41,763 nt of DNA from a virus. The notes below the pieces were generated by a model. The model did not search any database and was not told where the DNA came from. It worked only from the letters and a program-made list of their open reading frames with translations. The position numbers were made by a program, and so were the translations under genes. The stretch lies in the IMG/VR virus record IMGVR_UViG_3300005563_000055, positions 1 to 41,763 of that record; one strand, given 5' to 3'. Positions 4,949 through 26,939 of this stretch are shown piece after piece. Each line of letters begins with the position of its first letter. Position 1 is the stretch's first letter.

Positions 4949-6010
4949 CTAACTTTTCACTTCAACTGTTTTCGCAATCATCTTAGCCGAACAAACCAGC
5001 AAATTGCCTGATTCAATGAACAGAGCATTATCAGAGTAAGAGAATTTTGCCTTTTCCTCTTTAATGGCCTTTAGACAGCGGGACAGGTTTTGACAATGAA
5101 TGCCTAGTTTCAAATCTTTAAACTTGCCCTCAAACTCGTTTTCAATCTGTGTTTCGGCAGAAGTGAAGCCAAGCCACAAACCAGTTTTAGAGAATACCAT
5201 TTGGGCATTGGCTGATATGTCTCCATTGGCAACTGCCAGACATGCCTCTAATGTCTCTATGATTGGTTTTAAGGCAGTTTCACCAATGGGATGGCGTTCC
5301 GTCCCCAAGAAGCCTGCCGTGTTTGGATACGGGCAATCTAGGAGCTTGCAGATATATTCACCATCAGCATGGGCAACCTTGGCAGTCCGCTCGCTTAGAT
5401 GAAATTCAGCATCTTTCCGCTCAAGATGAATAGAAATATCACAAGCCATTGAAATGGGTATAGCACACTCGAAATCAGGGCCGATGATGGCTTCGCAATA
5501 GGCACCAGCACAACGCCCATTTGTGCCCTCAACATAAAGCTCTTTCGCTTTGGACATAAAATGTATGGCCGCTCGCGTGATATTCTCATGCTTGGCATCA
5601 GGAGCGAATTTAACCGCATTGATAGCCGTTGCCAGACTGGAAACATTCACGCCTTGAACACTATATTTGGCATCAGGAAACTTAGGAAACTCCTCCGCAC
5701 TCATAGTAGCCAATTTCATCACCGATTTGCCGTGTTTTATGATGATATGGTTTCCGTCTTTGGTGATGGTCACATATTCACCGCCAATAGCAGATTCAAA
5801 GTGTTTAAAATTGACACAAATTGGCTCAAGTTTTTCGTCTGATTCAACCCGTTCAACTTGCCATGAATCCAAGTCGCTTGCGGTGATTGAAAGATTAGCT
5901 CCATCGCTTTCAAGTTTGATGCAATGAAGGATTGGCATTGTTGTCCTGCCCGAACTGATTCCGCGCAGACGGGTTAATGCTTCTTTTAGGGGTTTAGTTG
6001 TGATTTTCAT
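4949..6010 (-). CDS. dnaN: DNA polymerase III beta sliding-clamp homologue
   Basis: 353 residues, close to the usual beta-clamp length (about 365-380). The N-terminal signature is typical: MPILHCIKLESDGANLSITA followed by SDLDSWQVER, and later repeats of the three-domain fold include FSKTGLWLGFTSAETQIENEF. The clamp encircles DNA and tethers polymerases and other clamp-binding proteins. No phage DNA polymerase or clamp loader is seen in the window, so it may recruit host polymerase III or compete with the host clamp. Its ATG overlaps the upstream stop by one base (TAATG). Confidence 0.88.
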   Translation of the reverse strand: MKITTKPLKEALTRLRGISSGRTTMPILHCIKLESDGANLSITASDLDSWQVERVESDEKLEPICVNFKHFESAIGGEYVTITKDGNHIIIKHGKSVMKLATMSAEEFPKFPDAKYSVQGVNVSSLATAINAVKFAPDAKHENITRAAIHFMSKAKELYVEGTNGRCAGAYCEAIIGPDFECAIPISMACDISIHLERKDAEFHLSERTAKVAHADGEYICKLLDCPYPNTAGFLGTERHPIGETALKPIIETLEACLAVANGDISANAQMVFSKTGLWLGFTSAETQIENEFEGKFKDLKLGIHCQNLSRCLKAIKEEKAKFSYSDNALFIESGNLLVCSAKMIAKTVEVKS

Positions 6011-6438
6011 TATTCAACAGATGGTGGATTAAGCTGATATTCCGTGTGTCTGGTTTTACCATTAGATACGTCTTTGACCTTTACAATGTTGTGACCTTGA
6101 GCGCGGAGCCTGCTAATCTCACGCGAGAATGAGGCGCACCAGCCATTTGGCTTGCCGCTGCCGATGCGAGACAGTTCAGGCATGGCAACTGGAACAAGCG
6201 AGGCTTGCAATGCGGCTAATATTCGCTTCGCCTTGGCAGAACTTTCTGAATGTTTTGATTTTGTCTTTGGGGGGCATTCTTTGCGGGCATAAGTTGTCGT
6301 CACTTTATCTCCATCCATTTCGGTTGCGATTGGATAGATAACAAGTCTTTCGCCGCCAAGATTAAGTATTCGGGTTATCTTGTACGGCTTAACACGACTA
6401 TGCGCCGCCCTTAGAGATGCGTCATTGTGTGGATTCAT
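6010..6438 (-). CDS. Winged-helix-like protein, 142 aa
   Basis: The C-terminal 45 residues have the pattern of a compact winged helix found in many phage proteins: NGWCASFSREISRLRAQGH, then a beta wing with NGKTRHTEYQL. The N-terminal half is basic and beta-rich. A good GGAGA ribosome site lies eight to nine bases before the ATG. It directly precedes the clamp gene with a one-base overlap. DNA binding, for example as a replication initiator accessory or regulator, is inferred from the fold pattern only. Confidence 0.65.
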   Translation of the reverse strand: MNPHNDASLRAAHSRVKPYKITRILNLGGERLVIYPIATEMDGDKVTTTYARKECPPKTKSKHSESSAKAKRILAALQASLVPVAMPELSRIGSGKPNGWCASFSREISRLRAQGHNIVKVKDVSNGKTRHTEYQLNPPSVE

Positions 6439-6474
6439 ATAAAATTCTCCGTCTGGTTATTTTTCATGGGGTGG

Positions 6475-6726
6475 TTAGTCTAAAATGTCAACTGGTGAAT
6501 AGCTGTAGCGAACGCCGCTATAATCGCATTGCATTCCCTTGTCGTGTTCGTTTGCTCCGTCCGGCAAAGAATAGTGGCCATGTTCGGCTAATAATTCATT
6601 TGCCCTAAGCGTGGCGTGTTGCACATGGGCTTGCGCGGCCATTTCAGAATAATAAGCCGCAACATTCCATTCACGATGGTCTGAATACTCGCCAGTTGAA
6701 CCTTGGATTACATAAATGATTTTCAT
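6475..6726 (-). CDS. Small conserved phage-type protein with GEYSD motif
   Basis: 83 residues beginning MKIIYVIQGSTGEYSDHREW, then NVAAYYSEMAAQAHV. The pattern of a short beta strand, GEYSD, a Trp, a second strand AAY and an E..A..H helix recurs in small uncharacterised phage proteins that often sit in early operons. The fold is probably a small alpha/beta unit. The function is not known. An AAGGA about eight bases before the ATG supports the start. It follows the VRR-NUC gene by three bases. Confidence 0.65.
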   Translation of the reverse strand: MKIIYVIQGSTGEYSDHREWNVAAYYSEMAAQAHVQHATLRANELLAEHGHYSLPDGANEHDKGMQCDYSGVRYSYSPVDILD

Positions 6727-7160: not shown

Positions 7161-7586
7161 TTAATTGAGCTGCTTCTGTGTTCCCTTGTCTGGATTTATG
7201 GCGTAAAATGGCTGTCCCCATTCACGATTATATTGGTCAATTCTCATTAACCGATTCCAAGCCACAGACAGACAATCGGGGCCAGCATCGTCCAATAGGC
7301 GGGCGACATAAGAGACATGTGCCCTCCCCTTTCGTGTTTCTTCAATCCATTCGTGCTTTATTTCAACTTCAATGAGCGTTAGCAATGCTAGCTTATAGCG
7401 TTCAACTGCCGCTTGGCTCTGTTGAATGTAGCCGGAACCATTTGCAAAATCGCATCCATCTGGGACAGCCGCAAGATTGCGAGCTATGCGGGCCAATGAG
7501 CCAACTAAATTATCTCTTTCAACGCATTGCTTCTCGCTATCAAACAAGCATCCGTCAAAGGCTTGATATTTGGTCAAAATCTTCAT
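7161..7586 (-). CDS. Hypothetical protein with KYQAFDGCLFDSE N-terminus
   Basis: 141 residues starting MKILTKYQAFDGCLFDSEKQ. This opening (a short strand, AFDG, a Phe and an acidic-Cys stretch) recurs at the start of otherwise different small phage proteins of unknown role. The rest is helical with a basic middle. A strong AAGGA lies six to seven bases before the ATG. It lies between the SSB-like gene and the nuclease gene, so a role in early DNA metabolism is likely from context only. Confidence 0.65.
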   Translation of the reverse strand: MKILTKYQAFDGCLFDSEKQCVERDNLVGSLARIARNLAAVPDGCDFANGSGYIQQSQAAVERYKLALLTLIEVEIKHEWIEETRKGRAHVSYVARLLDDAGPDCLSVAWNRLMRIDQYNREWGQPFYAINPDKGTQKQLN

Positions 7587-10830: not shown

Positions 10831-11592
10831 TTATTTCACAAGATGCAACCATTCTGCTCCGGGAGATTTCAATTCAATCAAAGCTTGACAACCAATATCA
10901 GCCGCTTTTAGCAGGAAAAAATCCTTTCCAAAATGATTTTTAAAGTCTGCGTATGCGTCTGCGTATGCGTCTGCGGATGCGTCTGCGTATGCGTATGCGT
11001 CTGCGTCTGCGTATGCGTATGCGTCTGCGTCTGCGTATGCGGATGCGTATGCGTATGCGTATGCGTATGCGTATGCGTATGCGTATGCGTATGCGTATGC
11101 GGATGCGTATGCGGATGCGTATGCGTATGCGTATGCGGATGCGGATTTTGCCGCTTCGCGGCAGGCTTTGAATCCCCTCGCGTTTTCGCATTCTTTCGCG
11201 TGGGCCTCAAATTTGGCAGGCTCTTTGCAATCTTTTCGTTGTGCCAAATATCGAAACAATGGCGGCAATATTTGGTTCACACCCTTTTGGCAAAGCAATT
11301 CAGAAAACTCTTTTTGGTTTATTTGGTCACTGCCAAGTTGTGCAATCGCGATGCGCTTCAAGCCTTCGCCGCGAGCCTTATCGCTAGACCAATTTTGGTC
11401 ATTAAGCGCGATTTTGAATGAGCGAACAGCTTGACCAACACACTTCGGGTCATCGCCGTGCGGAAGTCCAAGCGCATAACATACGCATGCCTCAACGCAC
11501 ATTTGACCGGCTTCCGGCCTGCCAACTCCCTTAACAAGTCCATGTCCAGTCAGCTCAACAATCTTTTCAACCAATGTTTTTGTTATTTTCAT
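10831..11592 (-). CDS. Ala-[Tyr/Ser/Asp] repeat protein with conserved N-terminal domain
   Basis: 253 residues in three parts. Residues 1-145 look like a real globular domain (EACVCYALGLPHGDDPKCVG, then AVRSFKIALNDQNWSSDKAR) of a type I associate with phage hypothetical proteins. Residues about 148-215 are an almost perfect alternation of Ala with Tyr, Ser or Asp. The last 35 residues are again ordinary (GKDFFLLKAADIGCQALIEL). The low-complexity part comes from a hexanucleotide array, so gain or loss of units always keeps the frame. This makes it a candidate length-variable linker or surface tract. Function is unknown. Confidence 0.7.
   Translation of the reverse strand: MKITKTLVEKIVELTGHGLVKGVGRPEAGQMCVEACVCYALGLPHGDDPKCVGQAVRSFKIALNDQNWSSDKARGEGLKRIAIAQLGSDQINQKEFSELLCQKGVNQILPPLFRYLAQRKDCKEPAKFEAHAKECENARGFKACREAAKSASAYAYAYASAYASAYAYAYAYAYAYAYAYAYASAYADADAYAYADADAYAYADASADAYADAYADFKNHFGKDFFLLKAADIGCQALIELKSPGAEWLHLVK
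10944..11145. repeat. Coding hexanucleotide array, about 33 units
   Basis: About 33 consecutive six-base units, mainly gcgtat with variants gcgtct and gcggat (plus-strand sense), occupy roughly 200 bases inside the gene at 10831-11592. Every unit is two codons of the minus-strand gene, giving Ala-Tyr, Ala-Asp or Ala-Ser. The variants are interspersed rather than in blocks, apart from one pure gcgtat run near 11047-11099. All six frames are open through the array, which creates several spurious long frames of VC, MR, RI and TH dipeptides. Confidence 0.9.
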
Positions 11593-15130: not shown

Positions 15131-15523
15131 ATGAATACTATCAATGTATATTTCGATGGTGGCACAAGCCGGATTGATGGCTATGGTTCTTTTGAAGTAG
15201 AATTCAATGGATTCAATAAGAAAGAGAACCGAATCCCATTCAAAGCCACTGAATTTAAGCGCAAGATAACAAGCACGGTTGCTGAATACTTGGCCCTACT
15301 GTCCGCGCTTTACTGGCTTCGCACAGTCAAGAACAAGCCTGATTATCACGTCCATATTCATGGTGATTGCAAAGCCGTCATCTATTCAGTCCAAGGTAAA
15401 CAGAATCATAAGCAGCTTTATCTAAAAGCTCTCCAAGAACGAACCAAGCAGCTTCTATTCGGATTCAAGTGGCAATGCGAATATCAACCGCGAAAGAAGA
15501 TTGTCAGCCGATTTGGACATTAA
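15131..15523 (+). CDS. RNase H-fold protein
   Basis: 130 residues. The opening INVYFDGGTSRIDGYGSFEV with Asp9, TVAEYLALLSALYWLRT with Glu52, and HIHGDCKAVIYSVQGK with Asp79 match three of the four catalytic acids of the RNase H family. The fourth position near the C-terminus appears to be His or Arg (IVSRFGH) rather than Asp. It could degrade RNA in hybrids, for instance replication primers, or be an inactive relative. A GAGG-rich leader precedes the ATG. It follows the HNH gene and precedes a long non-coding stretch. Confidence 0.75.
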   Translation: MNTINVYFDGGTSRIDGYGSFEVEFNGFNKKENRIPFKATEFKRKITSTVAEYLALLSALYWLRTVKNKPDYHVHIHGDCKAVIYSVQGKQNHKQLYLKALQERTKQLLFGFKWQCEYQPRKKIVSRFGH

Positions 15524-15655
15524 CCACAACGCCCCGCAATCGCTCTAGGATTCGCTATAACGCATCTTGATTCGATTCCGGCACATTCCCCCGCACAGAA
15601 CTACAAACCATTTGTATAACCGTTTCTAACAGCTTCTAGGTGATTTGAGGTAGAT

Positions 15656-15778
15656 ATGGATAGAAATGAGGATTTGTTGGGCTTTAATGATAAAGGAATG
15701 GTTGGCTTGCTCAAATCATCTATTACTTGCGTATCCAAATTCTATACACACAAGAACCACACAATTAGTTGTATGTAA
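15656..15778 (+). CDS. Possible 40-aa ORF with good ribosome site
   Basis: The frame starts MDRNEDLLGFNDKGMVGLLK and ends at TAA. A GAGG lies five bases before the ATG, better than most starts in this genome. The product is short, with a hydrophobic middle and a Cys/His-containing end. No family is recognised. It could be a leader peptide for whatever is transcribed through the following region. Confidence 0.3.
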   Translation: MDRNEDLLGFNDKGMVGLLKSSITCVSKFYTHKNHTISCM

Positions 15779-15783
15779 ATGGA

Positions 15784-15814
15784 TTGGACACACAACATAT
15801 AGCGTGTGTATAAA
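15784..15814 (+). promoter_or_regulatory. Weak rightward promoter candidate
   Basis: TTGGAC at 15784-15789 and TATAAA at 15809-15814 are separated by 19 bases, which is longer than optimal. An ACACA/TGTGT inverted repeat lies between them and could be an operator. Two further TATAAT boxes downstream lack a matching -35. Only the A/T-rich context and gene-free position support it. Confidence 0.2.
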
Positions 15815-15969
15815 ATGGACACCTTCTAAAAACTATAATTAGGACAAGTAATGAATCGACTTAAGAGGTAAATCCATGCAATCAATTTAACCGTTTCGTC
15901 TTGTTATTGCTTTATAATGAATATGTTACAACTGTCTAGATTTGAACACGTTGAGATTGATTCTTGAGA

Positions 15970-16179
15970 CTAAAACGAGTAGTGAATATTGCCGTCTGAA
16001 TATGTGAAGCCGAGGATTGATTTATGTCTTGGTTCATCCTGTCCATAAAGTCCCATTCGTCTGTTTCTTGGAGTTGGCCTGCTTCTCTTGAATTCTCTTT
16101 CAATCTGCTTTGTTTGATTGGCTACAAAATCATTACCTGATACCCAATGGATTTCATTAACTGCAATTGAATTCATCAT
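15970..16179 (-). CDS. Hypothetical protein of minus-strand pair, 69 aa
   Basis: 69 residues, basic in the middle (EREFKRSRPTPRNRRMG) and aromatic at the end. Its ATG overlaps the TGA of the upstream gene (16176-16361) by four bases, the same coupling style as the main leftward block, which is the chief reason to believe it. It is isolated on the minus strand inside the rightward block. The product is not recognised; a nucleic-acid-binding role is possible from charge alone. Confidence 0.45.
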   Translation of the reverse strand: MMNSIAVNEIHWVSGNDFVANQTKQIEREFKRSRPTPRNRRMGLYGQDEPRHKSILGFTYSDGNIHYSF

Positions 16180-16361
16180 AAGTGATTTAACTGAATGTCT
16201 TTAAGAACTTGTTTTGTTATCCGCATGACGCTTTCATATCCCATTTGCTTAATGGAATTGAGATAATCTTTTATCAGTCTGCCTTGTTTTGTTAGAGCCG
16301 CATTACCTCGAATCACGAGGATAGCTGACAAGCCTTTAAGAGTGCGGCGGATAGCACTCAA
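16176..16361 (-). CDS. Hypothetical basic protein of minus-strand pair, TTG start
   Basis: 61 residues from a TTG (MSAIRRTLKGLSAILVIRGN), helical and basic, ending VMRITKQVLKDIQLNHL. No Shine-Dalgarno is seen and an ATG-TAA lies just upstream, so the start is unsure. It forms an ATGA junction with the next gene. The two genes make a separate minus-strand island whose promoter would have to lie in the structured region to the right. It could be spurious if that region is entirely non-coding RNA. Confidence 0.35.
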   Translation of the reverse strand: MSAIRRTLKGLSAILVIRGNAALTKQGRLIKDYLNSIKQMGYESVMRITKQVLKDIQLNHL

Positions 16362-16375
16362 TTACATAGCTTGCC

Positions 16376-16900
16376 CATAGACCGCTTGCCGATAGTTCCT
16401 ACCGACTTCCCAGTACCGAAAACGAGCGAAATTGTACTGGCTAAACATCCCGATAAAGGATGGCGAATGTTTCATGCGGTCATCGCCTGACCATCATTTC
16501 TTAAAGATGCCAGTCCTTATTGGGGAACGCCAGCAATCGAAAAGGCCGATGCCCCGAAGGACACCGGCCTAATCTGAATGCAGCTCACCGCCTGAAAAGA
16601 CGGATTGCCAATCGCTAAATTGAATATACTGAACTGCATTTCGGCTACATCATCGCACACCCTCAAACAAATTTGCAACTTTCCCATCAATTGTTATTGA
16701 CGATGATTCTGTTTCAATATATGCTCTCGTTGCTTAATTAACGCGGGACAGGCTTAGGCTTGGTGATGCTGAGGCAACTTTACCCGCAAATTTCCAGCAA
16801 AGCAGTCCGACCTTTAAACATCGACGCTGCGCGGTGAAGCCTGAATGTGTGTGACGCCTTTCGGATTGTAGCTGGTGTGTATGGCATAGGTAGGCTAATT
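16376..16900 (+). ncRNA. Candidate structured non-coding RNA, about 0.5 kb
   Basis: No convincing gene is found in 16362-16925, but inverted repeats are dense. The best is a two-part stem, 16794-16798 with 16871-16875 and 16802-16810 with 16861-16869 (14 pairs, two G-U), whose wobble pairs favour the plus strand. Others are CCAGTAC/GTACTGG (16410-16416/16434-16440), CATCC/GGATG, GGTCA/TGACC with its TCGCC loop complementary to GGCGA upstream, AATGCAG/CTGCATT, GCGGG/CCCGC, and long-range CCTACC/GGTAGG (16398-16403/16889-16894) that could close the whole domain. The boundaries are guesses. No Rfam family is recognised from memory. Confidence 0.35.
16540..16570 (-). terminator. UUCG hairpin, candidate minus-strand terminator
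   Basis: On the minus strand AGGCCGGTGTCC and GGGCATCGGCCT form a 12-bp stem with two G-U pairs around a TTCG loop closed by C-G, followed by four T (TTTTCG). The two wobble pairs become A-C mismatches on the plus strand, so the minus strand is the likely functional one. It would stop leftward transcripts entering from the late region, or be an arm of an antisense RNA. Confidence 0.4.
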
Positions 16901-16925
16901 CAGGCAACGCAGCAAACTTTAAACC

Positions 16926-17135
16926 ATGAACCAGACTGAACCAACAGGATTAAGGGGGCCGTGCCTTAAATGTTACCAGACATGGTATGGCGAACTATCT
17001 TGGAATATCTGCCATCAGTGCCGCCCAAAGATTGCGCCGAAGCCTGAATATCTGGGTGTGTGGCATCGTATCGGCAAATTCTCTGAAATCGTCCGCACGT
17101 CCAGCAATGCGGTGTTTCGGTTTCCTTTGTTTTGA
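16926..17135 (+). CDS. Small zinc-ribbon protein before the packaging genes
   Basis: 69 residues with CLKC at about 13-16 and CHQC at 29-32, a compact zinc ribbon, followed by a beta-rich tail. It starts at the first ATG after the structured region, with no Shine-Dalgarno. It leads a run of small genes toward the terminase. Its role is unknown; the metal site is inferred from Cys spacing. Confidence 0.5.
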   Translation: MNQTEPTGLRGPCLKCYQTWYGELSWNICHQCRPKIAPKPEYLGVWHRIGKFSEIVRTSSNAVFRFPLF

Positions 17136-23909: not shown

Positions 23910-26461
23910 TGAATCGCGCACAAAAAATCTTGTTCCTGAATACACACGGCGTTGATGTCGCGGCCAACGTGACCAACAAATGGCTTGATACAGAAATCGC
24001 CAAGTTTGAAAACCGCGTGGTTAATTACGCTGGCGGAAAGATAAATGTTGTCTTTAACAAGGGCGATGAGACGCCGGTTGAAGTTATGATTTATCAGGAC
24101 ATAGGTGACGACCCTTTTTCTGGCATGGAAGGGTTTACCGCCAAGTCTTTTATGGATTCCCTAAAGGACATTCCAAATACGAGGGCATTGGATTTGCGTA
24201 TCAATTCCGCAGGCGGTTCAGTCTGGGAAGGTTTGGCAATTAAGACCCGATTGCAGGATTGGAAAGGTAAAAAGACGGCGAGCATTGACGGCATGGCGGC
24301 TTCCGTGGCGTCTTGGCTGGCGATGGACAAGGATATTGAACTCCGCGCCCCGCGCCACGCCCAAATGTTCATCCATGACGCATGGGGGATGTGCATGGGC
24401 AATGCGGAAGATATGCGGTCACAAGCTGGCGACTTGGATACAACTTCGCAGCAAATCGCGCAGATGTATGCCGATAAGTCAGGCAAGACAGTTGATGAAT
24501 GCCGTTCTTTGATGAAGGCCAACTCGCTTTTCACCGCCGAAGAAGCGAACAAGATGGGATTTATTGACAAGCTGACCGACGACGAGCCGGTTCAGAATTT
24601 CACCGAGAAACAGATTAACAATATGACTTCAAAGCTTGTTGCTTTGAACAAGTATAAACTTCCCGCTCAACAGGGCGGTGATAACACAAAAAACACAATG
24701 AAAAAACACCAAAAAATCGCCCTGCTTAACAAGTGGGGTATCACCGCCCCGAAAGACGCCACCGATGAAATGCTGGACAGTCTGATTGCCTTGGGCAAGC
24801 AGTTCCCACAGAACAAAGACGCCAAGAAAGTCAAAGACGATGAGGATGAGGCCATGAATGCGCCTGAACCTGCCGCTGAAAAACCCGACCCCGATTGCGA
24901 CGAGGGCGCGGGCGGCGATGATGAAAGCGAAGAGTGGAAGGCGGCTACCGCCAATCAGAAAAAGGCTACTGACCGCCTCAACAAGTTTCTGTTGAACCAG
25001 CGCAAGGTTGCGATGCAGGCCAGCTTTGACAAGCTCGTTACCGAAGGCCGTTTGGCCGCTAATGATGTCAAAAACTGGATGGAAACCGCCATTGCGATGG
25101 AGGATAACGAACAGGGCGAAAATCCTATTCTCGTTCAGTTGAACAAGCTTCCCGCCGTTGTTCCCGGCCATGCGCCGTTGAATATTGTTGTGGGTGAATC
25201 TGACAACATCACGGATTTGGACAAGAACGTCCGCAACCTGATGGAGGCGCAAGCCTATCACACCCGCAATGGACGCGGCCCTGAAAATCATTCTGAACGT
25301 GTTGAGGTTTCCCGCCGCTCAAAAGAAGTTGCGCGTCAAATCAACCGGCTCAAGAAGTATGAAGGAGGTGTTTCTGAAAACTCCATCACTGGCGCATTGC
25401 CGAAATTGACCGGCCCGCTGGTTGATGCTTGGAATCAATGGGCGAACGGCAGTCCGCGCAATGCGAACACGATGTCCAGCCAGCTTTTGCGGCAGGTCAT
25501 TCTGTCCGAGGTGATGCGTGCTTTCCGTCGCCAGTTTGCGAGCTTGGAAATCTTCGCGCATAACTTCGGCTCTGTACCGCTCGAAGGTACGGACGTTGTT
25601 AACGTGCCTTACTACCCGCTCTCGACGACTGCCAGCACGGAATTTACCTATGCTGCCGGTTACACGATTGCGGCGAACGCGCAGACGCTCTACAAGCAAG
25701 TCACCGTTGGCGGTATCGGCAACGGCGTTGCCTCCGCTGGTTCAGGCCGCAAGTATCAGCCGCTCGCGTTCACCGCTTACGAAATCCGCCGCCAGCCTTG
25801 GTTGGACATTCAGAAGTTGTCCGTGATGGCTGGCGAACAGTTGGCGATTGATGTTCGCGCTGACATTATCGGCACTCAAATCAACGCGGCGAACTTCGGA
25901 AACGCCATTTACACCGGAAACGCTGGCGGCTTTGACCACACCATCGTTGGTAATGTGCTCGCGCTTGCGGCCACGAAGGGCTTCTGGCCTATCAATGGGC
26001 GCAATGTGGTGTTGGCTCCGTCCTACTACACCAACCTGATGATTGACCCCGCTATTACGCCATTGCTGGCAATTGGCACCACGGACGTTATCCGCAAGGG
26101 TATCGTTGGCGGTCTGTACGGGTTTGAAAACATCATCGCTGACCCGCTCGTGCCGGTTGCGAATTTCATTCGCGGCGGTGATGGCACGGTTACGGCTGGT
26201 ACTGACCCGAACATGGCTGGTTTCATGGCGTGGCCTTCCGCTGTGCTCATTGCGACGGCTCCCATCATGCCGCCCCCCGGCGTGTTGAAGAAACTCGTTT
26301 CTTACGAGCAAATCACGGATGACCAGACTGGTCTGGCGTTCACCTATCAGTTCTGGGGTGATGAATCCAAGAACCGTGACAATGAAATCATTGAGTGCAG
26401 CTACGGCTCCGGCCTTGGCGAACTCGCGGCCCTTTACCGCCTTACCTCCGCTGGTGTGTAA
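23909..26461 (+). CDS. Fused ClpP-type prohead protease, scaffold and HK97-fold major capsid protein
   Basis: One frame of 850 residues. Residues about 55-235 are a ClpP-like (S14) protease: LRINSAGGSVWEGLA, then DGMAASVASW with Ser132 and MFIHDAWG with His156. The expected third residue (Asp) appears to be Asn in KANSLFTAEEA. Residues about 240-500 are charged and scaffold-like. From about 515 (LLRQVILSEVMRAFRRQFA) the HK97-fold capsid follows to the end. Maturation would be by self-cleavage. No stop or frameshift separates the parts. An in-frame ATG at 24698 (codon 264) could give a scaffold-capsid form. A duplicated 30-residue motif starts both halves. Confidence 0.85.
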   Translation: MNRAQKILFLNTHGVDVAANVTNKWLDTEIAKFENRVVNYAGGKINVVFNKGDETPVEVMIYQDIGDDPFSGMEGFTAKSFMDSLKDIPNTRALDLRINSAGGSVWEGLAIKTRLQDWKGKKTASIDGMAASVASWLAMDKDIELRAPRHAQMFIHDAWGMCMGNAEDMRSQAGDLDTTSQQIAQMYADKSGKTVDECRSLMKANSLFTAEEANKMGFIDKLTDDEPVQNFTEKQINNMTSKLVALNKYKLPAQQGGDNTKNTMKKHQKIALLNKWGITAPKDATDEMLDSLIALGKQFPQNKDAKKVKDDEDEAMNAPEPAAEKPDPDCDEGAGGDDESEEWKAATANQKKATDRLNKFLLNQRKVAMQASFDKLVTEGRLAANDVKNWMETAIAMEDNEQGENPILVQLNKLPAVVPGHAPLNIVVGESDNITDLDKNVRNLMEAQAYHTRNGRGPENHSERVEVSRRSKEVARQINRLKKYEGGVSENSITGALPKLTGPLVDAWNQWANGSPRNANTMSSQLLRQVILSEVMRAFRRQFASLEIFAHNFGSVPLEGTDVVNVPYYPLSTTASTEFTYAAGYTIAANAQTLYKQVTVGGIGNGVASAGSGRKYQPLAFTAYEIRRQPWLDIQKLSVMAGEQLAIDVRADIIGTQINAANFGNAIYTGNAGGFDHTIVGNVLALAATKGFWPINGRNVVLAPSYYTNLMIDPAITPLLAIGTTDVIRKGIVGGLYGFENIIADPLVPVANFIRGGDGTVTAGTDPNMAGFMAWPSAVLIATAPIMPPPGVLKKLVSYEQITDDQTGLAFTYQFWGDESKNRDNEIIECSYGSGLGELAALYRLTSAGV

Positions 26462-26470
26462 TGAAAACAT

Positions 26471-26505
26471 GGGGAGTGTCGCCGCTTGAAACCGGCACAC
26501 TCCCC
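26471..26505 (+). terminator. Strong hairpin directly after the capsid gene
   Basis: GGGGAGTGT (26471-26479) pairs with ACACTCCCC (26497-26505), then a bulged C and GCCG/CGGC extend it to 13 pairs around an eight-base loop. It is followed by TAAATAAAATT, not a T run, so it may be a partial terminator or an mRNA-stabilising hairpin that sets the high capsid level. A 15-codon frame from 26461 (MKTWGVSPLETGTLP) runs through it and stops at its base. Confidence 0.5.
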
Positions 26506-26516
26506 TAAATAAAATT

Positions 26517-26939
26517 ATGAGCGAAAATGTTACATTGGCAAAAAGCCGCAAGAAATTGACTATCACGGTCAACGAAGGCGATTACTTTGTCTTGGTTCAA
26601 CCTACGAAGGAATTCAATTCGCATTTGCGGGTTTACCGCGAGATTGCGGCCTCTGCTCCGGTGAATGAGGATTACGAGCGGGTTATCACGGGCAGGGTTA
26701 ACTATACCAGTTCCGCGTTGAACCTAATCACTGAGGAACAGGACGAAGCCAAGCGCAAGCTTAACACCGAAAACCTTAACCGCATTGAAGATGCTGTAAA
26801 AGACGCGCAGGAGCGTCAAGAAAAGCGTCTGGCGGATGAACAGGCTGAAAAAGAGCTTGAACACGAAACCTTGCTGGCTAAAAAGAATTCAATCATTGCC
26901 GACATTCAGGTTAATCACTCAAAAAGAAACGAAAAATAA
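26517..26939 (+). CDS. Hypothetical protein after the capsid gene (connector region)
   Basis: 140 residues. An N-terminal beta-rich half (KLTITVNEGDYFVLVQPTKE) leads to a long charged helix (EEQDEAKRKLNTENLNRIED), probably coiled coil. Position after the capsid protein corresponds to the FI/FII connector area in lambda-like phages, but the sequence does not allow an assignment. A-rich leader, no ribosome site. Confidence 0.55.
   Translation: MSENVTLAKSRKKLTITVNEGDYFVLVQPTKEFNSHLRVYREIAASAPVNEDYERVITGRVNYTSSALNLITEEQDEAKRKLNTENLNRIEDAVKDAQERQEKRLADEQAEKELEHETLLAKKNSIIADIQVNHSKRNEK

Follow-up and report, generated by a model that had tools for sequence, protein, structure and literature searches.

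OOP, sar, PreS and VpdS are regulatory small RNAs of phages (PMC12197685). The predicted RNA described here is like these in being a short non-coding phage RNA, in this case located between phage transcription units and with a predicted promoter and terminator. It differs from them in that it has no Rfam match, its host is uncultured and the evidence for it is wholly computational. It is found within positions 16376-16900 of the virus record IMGVR_UViG_3300005563_000055, the 41,763 bases of which are termed the window.

The interval adjoining the packaging genes

The interval 16362-16925 lies between minus-strand ORFs (15970-16361) and the packaging genes of the plus strand. The upstream plus-strand genes encode two HNH endonucleases, a Lar-like protein and an RNase H-like protein; those downstream encode a small-terminase-like protein followed by a GpA-type large terminase. 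All the ORFs in 15524-16925 are short, and none with a family match was found in 16362-16925, so that an earlier note was right to call the stretch gene-poor and lacking a convincing gene. Neither a tRNA nor an Rfam match at gathering score was found in 15524-16925, and a tRNA/tmRNA search returned none.

That note had proposed 16376-16900 as a candidate structured RNA, here taken as one large domain on the plus strand, and had pointed to GOLLD, ROOL and HEARO as large phage RNAs at similar sites. The site is indeed gene-poor and contains inverted repeats, but the 564-base plus strand of 16362-16925 folds with no energy excess over shuffled sequence (z = 0.06). The inverted repeats that were named (at least eight had been claimed) are present as sequence, but the number of perfect repeats is much what dinucleotide shuffles give, with 31 of at least 6 bp (gap up to 500) compared with 26.9 +/- 4.0, 6 of at least 7 bp compared with 6.8, and 1 of at least 8 bp compared with 1.7. 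The two-part stem at 16794-16875 can be written as described (CCAGC..GCTGG and CAGTCCGA..TCGGATTG), but gives z = -1.1 and was equalled or bettered by 32 of 200 shuffles; the CCTACC/GGTAGG pair likewise exists as sequence, but closure of a domain by it is unsupported. The Rfam library includes GOLLD, ROOL, HEARO, the group I intron and OLE. The whole library yielded nothing at gathering score anywhere in the window, and these five families are also absent from the weak matches in 15500-17000, which were taken to E = 5. Moreover, just ~180 bases can be aligned in the nearest relative, L002 (see below). A large plus-strand RNA was rejected on folding energy, repeat statistics and the known-family search, and we regard it as extremely improbable.

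A predicted minus-strand RNA and its structure

The evidence that the interval holds a structured RNA, as the note had suggested, is strong, but it concerns ~104 nt of the minus strand ending in a terminator, and not a plus-strand domain of ~500 nt. Strand and local scale both matter, as on the strand initially considered the interval in its entirety looks unstructured. The minus strand of 16362-16925 has z = -2.6, largely derived from 16536-16646, a segment to which the note had not drawn attention, and in a sliding fold scan the minus-strand excess falls mainly at 16431-16640. The segment 16536-16646 folds on the minus strand with -47.9 kcal/mol (z = -6.1), and none of 200 shuffles was as good. 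For 16543-16640 the values are z = -6.1 on the minus strand versus -3.2 on the plus strand. We conclude that a compact RNA of ~104 bases, complete with a terminator, is very probably encoded here on the minus strand. Its elements are as follows.

16642..16538, minus strand: predicted small RNA of ~104 nt, with 5′ end at ~16642 and 3′ end at ~16538-16540, comprising a three-way junction and a terminator
16640-16630 (AAUGCAGUUCA) with 16587-16577 (UGAGCUGCAUU), minus strand: P1, the closing helix, which encloses P2 and P3
16623-16618/16613-16608, minus strand: P2, a hairpin inside P1
16603-16598/16593-16588, minus strand: P3, a hairpin inside P1
16570-16559/16554-16543, minus strand: P4, predicted intrinsic terminator, with a 12-bp stem and a UUCG loop, followed by TTTTCG

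P4 has the longest stem among the terminator-like sites of the region in a pattern scan, and accounts for a large part of the folding energy. With the terminator removed, the junction has z = -3.8 on the minus strand versus -1.7 on the plus strand, and in folds of truncated RNAs it forms before P4 has been synthesized.

A fold scan of the whole window puts this 16431-16640 region in the top six clusters, one tandem repeat accounting for two of the six; z of about -5 or below is also attained at several further sites, repeats being among them. The strongest signal of the whole window comes from tandem TGCGTA/TGCGTC repeats at 10921-11165 (plus strand). A very stable hairpin at 26426-26530 (minus strand; GGGGAGTGT..ACACTCCCC, z about -9) sits between an ORF ending at 26461 and one starting at 26517. 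At 4909-4825 (minus strand) interlaced helices of 13 and 9 bp occur shortly before the start codon (ATG) of a ParB-like gene, where the complement of TGTGCAACG has one copy of this sequence upstream of it and one downstream.

Conservation in a related phage and the predicted promoters

When relatives were sought by their large terminase, the sole near one with upstream sequence was an environmental phage, IMGVR_UViG_3300005341_000008 (L002). It shares a non-coding island with the window, outside which the flanks cannot be aligned.

16565..16743, aligned to L002 7156-7326: conserved non-coding island (71% identity, E about 1e-18)

Every reading frame of the island is interrupted in at least one of the phages. 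This leaves no conserved protein, and a protein-coding reading of the island was rejected on its broken frames. At the corresponding place in L002 (7130-7240, minus strand) the RNA forms a like fold with P1, two hairpins and the terminator (z = -5.7); its junction without the terminator has z = -3.3 on the minus strand versus -2.4 on the plus strand. In P4 seven of the 12 base pairs are changed on both sides between the phages, one is changed on one side, four are the same and none is broken, and the terminator T-run is on the minus strand in both. For P1 there are eight common pairs, of which six are the same, with one changed on one side, one on both sides and none broken. Five of the six pairs of P3 are kept unchanged, while for P2 the pairings of the two phages differ. 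RNAalifold on a MAFFT alignment chose another partner for the 3′ strand of P1 and gave no pairs changed on both sides. Because there are just two sequences, the evidence for P1 comes from the fold of each phage taken singly and from the energy statistics, not from covariation, which is thin outside the terminator in this two-phage comparison. Fold, strand, conservation in the second phage and compensatory changes in the terminator are computed properties of the small RNA.

Two divergent promoters are predicted within the island.

16678..16649, minus strand: likely promoter of the small RNA, with TTGCAA (16678-16673), an 18-nt spacer and GATGAT (16654-16649), the latter preceded by TGC
16697..16725, plus strand: likely divergent promoter, with TTGACG, a 17-nt spacer and TATGCT (9/12 consensus matches), followed by the conserved GTTGCTTAATTAACG

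The minus-strand sequence lies in a conserved block of the alignment (GAGGGTGTGCGATGATG). In the window it has 8/12 consensus matches, below the threshold of the promoter scan, and its counterpart in L002 reads TTGAAA, 18 nt, GATGAT. The foot of P1 is ~seven bases 3′ of it in both phages, and it is likely to drive the small RNA. The plus-strand promoter, judged from its sequence, would serve the packaging genes; the L002 counterpart is TTGCAG, 17 nt, TATGCT at 7280-7308, and the block downstream of it is also kept. A plus-strand pseudoknot following this promoter (GTTGC/GCGGG/GCAAC/CCCGC) was dropped, as it is not kept in L002 and the pseudoknot scores of that leader are within the shuffled range.

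The most strictly kept blocks of the island, GAGGGTGTGCGATGATG and GTTGCTTAATTAACG, are promoter-like DNA. This favours an explanation in which there is no functional RNA and the island is kept as DNA, carrying two divergent promoters and operators, next to an ordinary terminator and incidental structure; the large share of the energy due to the terminator and the other strongly folding sites of the window point the same way. Against this, the z-scores of the junction stand in both phages when the terminator is removed, and the junction core CGATTGGC.A.CCGTCTTTT.AG is kept outside the promoter blocks. We consider conservation as DNA unlikely to be the whole explanation.

The small RNA found no family match in the whole Rfam library. 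The sub-threshold matches, mostly over the terminator, are far under their gathering scores (RydC 19.8 bits/48, ryfA 13.7/80, isrB 13.4/35 and Atu_C9 17.7/40). Searches of viral contigs, genomes of prokaryotes, phages and plasmids yielded no third member. Pattern scans of viral contigs returned L002 and otherwise matches judged to be chance; that of genome contigs gave 22 matches, approximately the chance number for 17 fixed bases, none of which scored as a member. Phage and plasmid records gave nothing or short chance matches. Among the large-terminase relatives L003-L009 and L016-L019 the island is absent where the sequence covers the site, several of these contigs beginning near the terminase genes. 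The small RNA thus appears to have a narrow reach in the collections searched. The contigs L004 and L005 start 10 bases apart, but the idea of a cos site was rejected, as nothing ties these starts to the interval.

Several further features were observed in the surroundings of the island and in the relatives. In non-coding DNA, the 41 bases of window 15869-15909 are the same as those of L002 6570-6610, and 15 bases overlapping this block (CTAAATCCATGCAAT in L002) recur at L008 23-37, just upstream of the L008 small-terminase gene; the block is a possible att, packaging or operator site. Adjacent to it L002 has ~1 kb (5525-6569) in which an HNH-like ORF is accompanied by a promoter-like leader of its own. 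In its place the window has ~175 unrelated bases (15694-15869) containing a 13-base inverted repeat (ATTCTATACACAC/GTGTGTATAAAAT), with a minus-strand fold of z about -3.7 to -5. Pseudoknot-like arrangements A, B, A′, B′ with arms of 10-13 bp occur at L002 5562-5655 (plus strand) and L015 10153-10062 (minus strand), directly 3′ of promoter-like sequence and just before the HNH start codon. The gene is an HNH endonuclease in L015 and an HNH-like ORF in L002, and the L015 5′ arm recurs at the start codon; such a leader could control mobile endonuclease genes. Interlaced helices of 10 and 12 bp also lie between promoter-like sequence and the small-terminase gene at L004 598-684 (plus strand) and the homologous L003 6120-6206. 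The large terminase of L002 (8612-11665) is a single frame of 1017 aa with an insert at the Walker A site, presumably an intein, that is missing from the window copy.

Proposed function and relation to known systems

A stand-alone, terminated RNA of ~104 nt is the simplest reading of the locus. Transcription would start at ~16642 from the promoter in the conserved island and stop at the intrinsic terminator at ~16540, releasing an RNA with a three-way junction and a terminator hairpin. The conserved CGAUUGGCnAnCCGUCUUUUnAGnCGG, which runs from the 3′ arm of P2 through P3, may be presented to an mRNA or protein partner, and the RNA might act during the shift to expression of the packaging genes from the divergent plus-strand promoter. 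Promoter, transcript ends, stand-alone status, regulatory role and partner are in each case what we infer. A crude scan of duplex energies found no convincing shared target; the energies that it gave look unrealistically low, and no reliance was placed on them. That this is a phage-encoded stand-alone small RNA, most likely regulatory, is a reading to which we give about half of our confidence.

The main rival is a leader under terminator control, because short minus-strand ORFs lie 3′ of the terminator in both phages. In the window these are possible ORFs with touching or overlapping ends.

16475-16362, minus strand: possible ORF of 37 aa
16361-16176, minus strand: possible ORF of 61 aa
16179-15970, minus strand: possible ORF of 69 aa

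In L002 an ORF of 43 aa begins just past the terminator T-run and one of 95 aa lies further down. The junction and terminator would then be the cis-acting 5′ leader of a short minus-strand operon, with a ligand, a protein or the ribosome deciding passage through the terminator. The minus strand 3′ of the terminator (16376-16542) has z = -2.2, which also speaks for a leader. On the other side, progressive truncation brought out no strong antiterminator fold that would compete with the terminator, be it in the window or in L002 (the latter has the strongest alternative, of ~4 kcal/mol), folds that depend upon a ligand or protein being outside the reach of this calculation. The sequence 3′ of the terminator is unalignable between the phages, and the 61- and 69-aa ORFs have no family match; the codon scores of the short minus-strand ORFs are neither clearly coding nor clearly non-coding. 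A leader is possible, though less probable than a stand-alone RNA. A new class of element, in which the junction and terminator, divergent from the packaging promoter, sense a signal or bind a phage protein and so control both the minus-strand operon and the packaging switch, is a distinctly improbable reading.

A site beside the terminase genes and a three-way junction that a helix of the 5′ and 3′ strands closes are also what might be expected of a packaging RNA like the pRNA of phi29, made beside these genes and taking part in DNA packaging. The Rfam library includes the phi29-type pRNA family, but this family appears neither at gathering score nor among the weak matches. No complementary loop pair is seen that could form a ring, the P2 loop (UAGC) and the P3 loop (UUUC) not being complementary. 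The large terminase is of GpA type, for which motor we know of no pRNA, and the RNA was not found in other relatives with this terminase. A role as packaging RNA is thus hardly credible.

With terminator-type riboswitch-like leaders the locus shares a junction closed by 5′ and 3′ strands, then an intrinsic terminator, then ORFs; it differs in having no apparent antiterminator, no conservation of the downstream ORFs and no family match. With phi29-type pRNA it shares a phage-encoded three-way junction, but without a family match and beside an unrelated type of terminase. As in phage small RNAs, a discrete structured non-coding RNA with an intrinsic terminator is predicted here, conserved in a relative. 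Because the general character is alike, without homology to any Rfam family, the small RNA therefore belongs to a known kind and not to a known family. If expressed, it would be a phage small RNA not described before, lying where two transcription units of an uncultured environmental phage lineage part, with a fold conserved while the terminator sequence changes, and a further case of phage RNA regulators outside the model systems.
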